From Oligoflexia bacterium (GTDB lineage Bacteria > Bdellovibrionota > UBA1018): a stretch of 46,660 bases of DNA. The notes beneath the pieces are model-generated. The model had not been told where the DNA came from and ran no database searches. It saw only the letters and a list, made by a program, of their open reading frames with translations. Position 1 is the first letter of the stretch; each line of letters begins with the position of its first letter. Made by a program: the position numbers and the translations under genes. Shown here piece after piece: positions 18,382 to 36,431 of this stretch. The stretch covers positions 1 to 46,660 of the forward strand of contig CAIRTR010000190.1 in assembly GCA_903881565.1 (NCBI GenBank), given 5' to 3'.

Positions 18382-19326
18382 TCAATGTAAAGCTGCAAGA
18401 GGTTTTTCTTCTTGATGAATCCAGCCGTGGTGAGCGCGGCAAACAGTGATGAGGTTTTCCAAAGAATTCTCTCCACCTCTACTTACCGGGATTCTGTGAT
18501 GAATTTCCAACCATCGGGTTTGACTGCATTTTCTCCCGTTTTCGTGGGTATAGGTGCACCGCCCTTGGTCCCTAAGCCTGACTTGATGGAGTAGATTCGC
18601 CGGAATCGGGACGCGAGTAGGCCGTAGATTAGTACCATGGGGCGGCGCCGCCTGTAGCGCTACAGGTTTTGCCTGTTTCCCCTTTTTTATAATCTGTCGC
18701 TTTGCGCGCTTCACTGGATCATGACGCTTGAGATACTCCCCAGTCATCTGCGCAATCACTTCTTCAAGTGTCACGGGCTTTCCCCTCGCCTGACTTAAGA
18801 GATCTTGCGCGCGTCTCAAAGCCAGCATGTCCTGCTCCGAAAGACCCACCACCATTTTTACACGCTTTTCTGTGACATAACTCACGCCTTCTTGCGTGGC
18901 GGATTGCGGTCTTACTTTTATGATTTCCTTCTCCAGAGCGCGATGGGATAGGGTTGCCGCTTTTTTCAGCCACTCCCCTTTGTTTTGAGGCGTCATCACT
19001 GGCGCAATTTTTCGCGCATTCGAAAGCGTGATCGTGCCCTGCCCAATGAGGAGGCTGAGTTCGGGCACCTCACGCGCTTTGCGAGTAACCGTGATGAGGT
19101 TGTAAGCGACGCCCTCAGAGAGTCCCAGCTCACGCACGACATAGAGAAAAAGACTCGGATGCCCGTGCTTGAGGTAAACTCGGTGGCGATCAATCTGATC
19201 CAGAATCTCGAGGAGTTCGGATTCCGCCTTTTTGTAGCGAGAACTGATTTCCAAGGCGCGCTGGTGGATTTGCCGGGACAAGGTAACATCTGGGGACATA
19301 GGGGATAATCCTTTCATGAAAAGCAC
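18382..19326 (-). CDS. HNH endonuclease domain protein
   Basis: VRLRDQGRCTYTHENGRKCSQTRWLEIHHRIPVSRGGENSLENLITVCRAHHGWIHQ. Confidence 0.85.
   Translation of the reverse strand: MLFMKGLSPMSPDVTLSRQIHQRALEISSRYKKAESELLEILDQIDRHRVYLKHGHPSLFLYVVRELGLSEGVAYNLITVTRKAREVPELSLLIGQGTITLSNARKIAPVMTPQNKGEWLKKAATLSHRALEKEIIKVRPQSATQEGVSYVTEKRVKMVVGLSEQDMLALRRAQDLLSQARGKPVTLEEVIAQMTGEYLKRHDPVKRAKRQIIKKGKQAKPVALQAAPPHGTNLRPTRVPIPANLLHQVRLRDQGRCTYTHENGRKCSQTRWLEIHHRIPVSRGGENSLENLITVCRAHHGWIHQEEKPLAALH
18651..18666. repeat. Perfect palindrome CCTGTAGCGCTACAGG inside the HNH gene
   Basis: Read directly; shares arms CCTGT...ACAGG with 28185..28200 and 36416..36431. Confidence 0.8.
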
Positions 19327-19532
19327 GGTTGAATTGTAATCATGAAAGTGCGCGGCAGGAGTAAGAAGTTAAAAACAGTGTATAATAAAGAGCGCACTTT
19401 ATTAGCGTAATTGAGGCTTGTTTATAGGGTTTTTCGCAAAATTTTGCAAGCCAATACCGCTATCTTCAACAGAATTTACTTCCAATTCGTTACTCGAGAT
19501 AAAAAAATAGTCAAAACAAACAGGAGTCATAA

Positions 19533-27896: not shown

Positions 27897-28631
27897 ATGA
27901 AAAAATACAATGTTTTCATGATGGTTGCCGCATCCGCTCTGCTTCAGATTGCCGCAAAAAACGCGGGGCCCACCAAGAGCTATTCAGCGGTCGATACGAG
28001 CGTGATCCCGGACGCAGGCATCGTGCTGGATGAAAAAGGCGATTCGATGGATTCGGATACAGGAAGGGCCTCGGTTCCGGTAGAGCCGGCGGAGATTGTG
28101 CCGCCACCTAGGCCGATTGTGAAATCGACTCCCGCTCCGAAGCCAAAACCTGCGGTGCGGAAACAAGCTCCGGTGGCGAGTGCGCCTGTCGCGCGACAGG
28201 CGGAAGCCGCGCCAGCTCCTGCCTTGGCGCCTAAACAAGAAACACGAATTAATTACGACAAAGTTCCTGCAAGCGAAACGGCGCCGCTCATGCAACGTCT
28301 GAAACTCGTCGAACAACTCATTGAACGGCATCATCGCGCTTACGATTATCGCGCGTTCACCGTGAAGCAACTTCAGGAGATTTTGAAGGCGCTGGATGAA
28401 CCTTTTGAGAAAGCGTTTCAGGAGGCGAAGCCGAGTGAGGCGAATGTGCCAGTGCCCGCAGTCCCCACGCAAATTTCCACACCAGCTCCAGCACCGCCCG
28501 CGGAACCTGCGTCTGAAATGCCATCCGCTAGCACTCCCCCGGAACCTCCGGTGCCAACCATGGAGAAGCCCGAGTCTCCCCCAAAAGAAAACAAAGCGGG
28601 GTCACCAGCTCCAGAAATGCCAACGCCATAA
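27897..28631 (+). CDS. Exported Pro/Ala-rich protein
   Basis: 244 aa; MKKYNVFMMVAASALLQIAAKNAG; low-complexity Pro/Ala segments. Confidence 0.65.
   Translation: MKKYNVFMMVAASALLQIAAKNAGPTKSYSAVDTSVIPDAGIVLDEKGDSMDSDTGRASVPVEPAEIVPPPRPIVKSTPAPKPKPAVRKQAPVASAPVARQAEAAPAPALAPKQETRINYDKVPASETAPLMQRLKLVEQLIERHHRAYDYRAFTVKQLQEILKALDEPFEKAFQEAKPSEANVPVPAVPTQISTPAPAPPAEPASEMPSASTPPEPPVPTMEKPESPPKENKAGSPAPEMPTP
28183..28202. repeat. Perfect 20-bp palindrome CGCCTGTCGCGCGACAGGCG inside the Pro/Ala-rich gene
   Basis: Read directly; core CCTGT-CGCGCG-ACAGG. Confidence 0.8.
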
Positions 28632-36415: not shown

Positions 36416-36431
36416 CCTGTATCGATACAGG
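36416..36431. repeat. Perfect palindrome CCTGTATCGATACAGG in the intergenic region
   Basis: Read directly; same arms as 18651..18666 and 28185..28200. Confidence 0.8.

Follow-up and report, generated by a model that had tools for sequence, protein, structure and literature searches.

A C/G-centred palindrome in the linker of a multicopy HNH gene family, a candidate recognition site of the encoded protein

The stretch of DNA analysed here (the window, 46,660 nucleotides from the genome of an Oligoflexia bacterium) contains, on its minus strand, a gene of the HNH family and, within this gene and at two other places, three 16-bp palindromes of the form CCTGTN6ACAGG. The features discussed below are the following, where a slash marks the dyad of a palindrome.

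18382-19326, minus strand: HNH-family gene P0001, 314 aa; the start is possibly an internal ATG, e.g., 19317 or 19299
18412-18576, minus strand: HNH nuclease domain (PF01844), residues 251-305, profile match
18607-18678, minus strand: hypervariable linker with the palindrome, residues 217-240; AlphaFold pLDDT below 50 at residues 217-234
18651-18666: palindrome copy 1, CCTGTAGC/GCTACAGG, in the linker of the HNH gene, minus-strand codons P-V-A-L-Q
18892-19287, minus strand: N-terminal domain, residues 14-145, all-helical, modelled as a ParB/Noc/KorB-like DNA-binding fold
19386-19401: a second, different near-palindrome, TAAAGAGC/GCACTTTA, in the conserved promoter region of HNH paralogues
28185-28200: palindrome copy 2, CCTGTCGC/GCGACAGG, in a Pro/Ala-rich stretch of the ORF at 27897-28631 (plus strand)
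36416-36431: palindrome copy 3, CCTGTATC/GATACAGG, in the gap between divergent genes

The three palindromes are present exactly as claimed by the initial annotation and lie far above chance, since shuffled sequences held a mean of 0.02 and never three. Its placement of copy 1 in the linker of the HNH gene was likewise borne out, the minus strand reading AAA CCT GTA GCG CTA CAG GCG for K-P-V-A-L-Q-A, and both the neighbouring GGCGGCGCCGCC and the ACAGG-CAAAA-CCTGT inverted pair that it described beside this copy were found. Copy 2 is read in the frame P-V-A-R-Q, which is the frame of the HNH linker in a paralogue (L152), and copy 3 is flanked by genes for a multihaem cytochrome (minus strand) and an ABC ATPase (plus strand).

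The nuclease domain of P0001 matches PF01844 with 31.5 bits against a curated cut-off of 21.4, and the family has 43 matches in the genome of the window and up to 70 in relatives, the genomes being draft MAGs in which repeated genes at contig ends cannot be counted with certainty. The AlphaFold model comprises a confident helical N-terminal domain and disorder at residues 217-234, the stretch in which the palindrome is encoded. In the model, the N-terminal domain takes a DNA-binding fold of the ParB/Noc/KorB type: its top five PDB matches in Foldseek were Noc, ParB, Spo0J, Noc, and KorB, with poor E values (best 0.34). Matches of family members to the Pfam ParB HTH model PF17762 were weak (best E 1.4e-3, below cut-off), and 6 of the 15 sub-threshold matches to this model in the whole genome were HNH genes. 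Comparison with the genome's own ParB by hhalign gave no significant match, and the N-terminal CTPase (ParB/Srx) domain is absent from the model, in which a long helix alone precedes the HTH region. DUF222 (PF02720) matched 3 of 8 family members, best 5.8e-7 and among distant members, with the window gene below threshold. A second ParA/ParB-like pair was also observed in addition to the chromosomal one (L301, G000:C42).

Across the genome of the window (4,556,104 bases, or 4.556 Mb, in 323 contigs), CCTGTN6ACAGG (CCTGTNNNNNNACAGG) occurs 38 times compared to 2 for the reversed control, and with the central CG fixed (CCTGTNNCGNNACAGG) there are 35 sites compared to 0. These counts are clearly not at chance, and the proposal in the initial annotation of a genuine dispersed family, enriched genome-wide, is upheld. 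Allowing one mismatch surfaced a second half-site, CCTGACTC, with 19 sites of the form CCTGACTCGNNNCAGG compared to 0 in the control; the overall form CCTGNNNCGNNNCAGG occurs 61 times, compared to 1. All 54 of the 35 + 19 sites are centred on C/G. The six central bases, described initially as variable and self-complementary, proved so only in part: 35 of the 38 CCTGTN6ACAGG sites share the same CG centre, and the remaining positions of the halves are filled by a few words (TAT 37, ACT 22, TCG 19, TAG 18, TAA 10, TCA 1, and TCT 1) that also pair asymmetrically, in 31 of the 54 sites. Symmetric sites nevertheless number 23 of 54, against 12.2 expected with independent halves, and such symmetric changes between the halves indicate recognition by a dimer, as had been suggested.

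Turning to the HNH genes as a family, a near-palindrome (7 or 8 of 8 pairs) was present in the linker of 36 of 58 non-identical Bdellovibrionota genes, compared to 2.6 after codon shuffling and 3.7 when the same number of positions was taken from other parts of these genes, with a CG centre in 32 of the 36; in about 22 of the 58 a strong linker palindrome is missing. Among 13 paralogues from the genome of the window, whose linker palindromes include CCTGTAGCGCTACAGG, CCTGTAACGTTACAGG, CCTGTCGCGCGACAGA, GCTGACTCGAGTCAGG, and CTTGTATCGATACAAG as well as others, 87 of 104 pair cells match; the shuffle mean was 75.9 and 10 of 20,000 shuffles reached 87, a comparison uncorrected for relatedness. 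None of 11 Cloacimonadota HNH genes had a strong linker palindrome, and one Cloacimonadota MAG, BROCD023 (L236-L252), was observed to carry many related HNH gene copies without one. Where the palindrome occurs, it is still present despite differences in linker length and sequence between HNH copies, and it differs from clade to clade, the G-numbered genomes below being those of other genera:

CCTGTAGC: window gene
CTCGTCAC/GCGACGAG: genomes G021 and G022
CTCGCGCC/GGCGCGAG and CTCTTCCC/GGGAAGAG: genome G001
CCTGCCCC/GGGGCAGG: genome G025
CTGTTCAC/GTGAACAG: genome G023
ACTCCGAC/GTCGGAGT: distant subfamily in the genome of the window

The same linker is palindromic, with different sequences, in HNH genes just 25-30% identical, a clade-specific co-variation in which the linker sequence shifts while palindromicity stays. 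The prospect that orthologues would keep the same codons as ordinary conserved sequence is not what was found, as orthologous linkers preserve palindromicity and not codons. Furthermore, because the same linker holds palindromes of other sequence in relatives, copy 1 is not one inserted element, and the comparison drawn initially to in-frame Rickettsia palindromic elements is not supported: those are inserts of roughly 100-150 bp, and the unit here is 16 bp and always placed in this one linker, across homologous HNH genes. The parS and Noc sites are likewise centred on C/G. ParB and Noc bind palindromes two-fold symmetrically, with a specificity that is switched by a small number of residues at the interface (PMC7383237). 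Given the predicted ParB-type fold of the HNH proteins, these binding habits fit a clade-variable, C/G-centred palindrome.

The linker palindrome also recurs upstream of its own gene in 9 of 36 cases, mostly 215-270 bp ahead of the aligned start, compared to 0 of 1138 for mismatched palindromes. In the relative G001, where the upstream and intragenic palindromes are about 800 bp apart, the homology between HNH copies begins at the upstream palindrome, two copies (L227 and L229) starting at its first base, so that left end and linker are paired; a second repeat family in this genome starts at the same palindrome. Most left ends of HNH copies in the genome of the window are without a palindrome, and only L149 carries one.

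In the latter genome, some 45 sites lie away from any HNH gene, and these could be copies that have spread, or else remnants or sites with another use. About 19 copies constitute family A, in which the palindrome is accompanied by AGTGnnTGCGTCAT...TGAAATTATTAAG and the other side is unrelated or weakly similar, while family B has the form CAG-CCTGTATCGAGTCAGG-CGATT and also matches the linker of an HNH paralogue (L059). Most copies outside these two families have only the 16 bp in common. The non-HNH genes that contain the palindrome (valyl-tRNA synthetase, a BaiN-like oxidoreductase, and a PemK-like toxin) have it within seemingly ordinary conserved motifs with no obvious insertion, as judged by eye. 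The idea that family A provides a promoter for downstream genes was rejected, as its orientation is near random. Separately, we noticed a small toxin-antitoxin-like gene array (L041, G000:C183, 1-6210) with 3 palindromes inside, the genes of which are spaced by repeated fragments resembling pieces of a GDP-L-fucose synthase gene.

In G001 the palindrome is also an insertion hotspot. CTCGNNNCGNNNCGAG occurs 30 times there, about 24 times as CTCGCGCCGGCGCGAG, compared to 5 occurrences of the control, and a 125-bp MITE with AGTGTGTTTGGAAAGTCC ends is present in 12 copies (L267 1005-1129 and 1935-2059; L179, L261, L263, L264, and L266). All 12 are inserted at the exact palindrome centre, CTCGCGCCGG^CCGGCGCGAG, with a CCGG duplication, in both orientations, and in HNH linkers, left ends, and intergenic DNA. 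Central insertion with a 4-bp duplication suggests a staggered cut about the dyad; however, it could be a transposase of the MITE itself, and not the HNH nuclease, that selects this target, much as REPs are selected by some insertion sequences. A search for insertions at the palindrome centre in the genome of the window found none. The only genuine internal truncations of HNH genes in G001 are in copies adjoining the MITE; HNH-domain-only fragments in this genome were considered as cut products and rejected, most being contig ends. In two 5'-truncated HNH genes (L261 and L264), the upstream side stops at the palindrome and MITE, a layout that recombination between two copies of the MITE would be expected to leave. 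Searches of viral and plasmid sequences recovered neither the HNH gene nor the MITE, the sole plasmid match being to an HNH domain in Deinococcus.

Based on the data presented above, we favour, with some reserve, the interpretation of the palindrome as a cognate site that the nuclease binds and probably cleaves and that has also become a dispersed repeat and insertion hotspot. That it is the protein's own site is the simplest account of palindromicity without sequence conservation, of the matching upstream and linker sites, and of the predicted fold. A protein composed of an N-terminal ParB/Noc-like helix-turn-helix, a flexible linker, and an HNH nuclease domain would bind as a dimer to a two-fold symmetric site of 16 bp with C/G at its centre, this being the cognate site of the HNH family whose gene bears the palindrome. 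Each clade's own site would be kept in the linker of its own gene, where the protein tolerates a palindrome, and often recurs at the left boundary of the gene unit; in the genome of the window it is also found at about 50 further loci, most of them extragenic. The nuclease would presumably cut or nick there, staggered by 4 nt around the dyad, which could turn the site into a junction and insertion hotspot, and such cleavage might drive the spread of the HNH gene. An extension of this interpretation, which we regard as tentative and appreciably less probable, is that of a selfish nuclease: an HNH gene with its own cleavage site in the linker and at the left end that spreads by cutting copies elsewhere, shifts its specificity while gene and site evolve together, and opens a landing pad for other small elements.

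In some bacterial genomes, HNH genes of this type rank with the most highly repeated genes, and we know of no account of how they multiply. A co-evolving site inside the gene would allow the target of each family member to be predicted from its own DNA. If the palindrome is the recognition spot of the nuclease, the nuclease and its linked repeats would represent a system of a new type. Such a system would offer a natural series of ParB-like specificities paired with sites, useful for studying specificity change, and might yield new sequence-specific nucleases.

It is also conceivable, but rather unlikely, that the palindrome functions only as an autoregulatory operator, with the HNH protein or its N-terminal domain repressing its own gene from the upstream and intragenic copies, e.g., by looping, and with the dispersed copies acting as other operators, all without cutting or mobility. 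The nine genes with the same palindrome upstream and within, the spacing of ~800 bp in G001, and the location of several dispersed sites between divergent genes are consistent with such a role. However, the dispersed sites fall into 11 convergent, 16 codirectional, and 14 divergent gaps, much like the background of gaps and unlike operators. Moreover, most HNH promoters in the genome of the window carry a different palindrome, TAAAGTGC/GCACTTTA, and the palindromes at repeat junctions and the MITE insertions would be left unexplained. The promoter palindrome, which looks operator-like, is conserved together with GCACTTTCATG...CATGAAAG upstream of HNH paralogues (window 19386-19401 and other HNH promoters). 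Two specific kinds of operator were considered and rejected: a LexA-like one, as the E. coli spacing CTGT-N8-ACAG misfits and the site positions are not promoter-like, and one of a sigma-70 regulon, as the sites are not confined upstream and occupy all three gap types.

Slightly less probable again is that these are REP-like extragenic palindromes spread by other machinery, with the HNH linkers merely tolerant and the MITEs and repeats using the palindrome as an insertion target. Indeed, ~80% of sites (43 of 54) are extragenic though the sampled DNA is ~85% coding, a split that is approximate because the simple script used to call genes missed one HNH ORF (L090/L059); one of the 43 actually lies in an HNH gene overlooked in this way. 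Repeat families start at the palindrome, and REPs are a known target of insertion sequences (PMC1525189). What this explanation leaves out is the occurrence of palindromes of differing sequence in the same linker of genes 25-30% identical, the match between upstream and linker palindromes within one gene, and a subfamily (II) in the genome of the window with 8 of its 10 sites in HNH linkers and hardly any elsewhere. A RAYT/REP link was also rejected, since none of the 11 Y1 (PF01797) transposase genes in the genome is flanked by the palindrome; these eleven RAYT-type genes (L108-L118, G000) are unusually many for one genome. The system that we favour, a nuclease with its own palindromic site, does resemble REP/RAYT systems (REPINs, BIMEs) in its dispersed extragenic palindromes of lineage-specific sequence (PMC2817692, PMC3116915, PMC1525189), in a putative DNA-processing cognate protein whose gene bears palindromes, and in serving as an insertion sequence target. 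It differs in that the cognate protein would be an HNH nuclease with a ParB-like domain instead of a Y1/HuH transposase, one palindrome copy lies in a coding linker, the nuclease gene is highly multicopy, and the conserved GTAG/GGAG head is not seen.

A hairpin in RNA or single-stranded DNA (a terminator, processing signal, or in-frame palindromic element), the other option raised initially alongside a dimer, is very improbable even though perfect palindromes are able to fold and many sites follow genes, because the central CG, which would have to form the loop, varies least of all and the halves mix asymmetrically; in addition, no T run follows the sites, and the 16-bp unit is not an insert relative to homologues. 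A search of Rfam for known RNAs gave tRNAs only, and integron attC sites were rejected, their GTTRRRY/RYYYAAC ends not being seen by eye.

Compared to ParB-parS and Noc-NBS, the HNH system shares the predicted DNA-binding fold, 14-16-bp C/G-centred palindromes, and (as for NBS) dispersed sites, and a site within the gene of the binding protein has a precedent in the parS of spo0J. It is unlike them in the fusion to an HNH nuclease, the absence of the CTPase domain from the model, the multicopy genes outside a parAB operon, and a site that changes with each gene clade. DUF222/13E12-type HNH genes (REP13E12 of mycobacteria) are also repeated in many copies, and distant members of the present family match DUF222; to our knowledge, no palindrome has been described for such proteins. 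With I-PpoI-like dimeric HNH/beta-beta-alpha-metal homing endonucleases it would share a palindromic target, and their 4-nt stagger would fit the 4-bp duplication; unlike them, it has no intron or intein, and the gene keeps an intact candidate target inside itself.

Finally, CCTGTCCCGGGACAGG is repeated in the relatives G002, G042, G044, and G072 (L034, L037-L039), with 4, 1, 13, and 6 copies, respectively, some of these genomes being related at the same-phylum level only. Among the copies read, only one, in G002, has an HNH gene nearby, 244 bp downstream of it.
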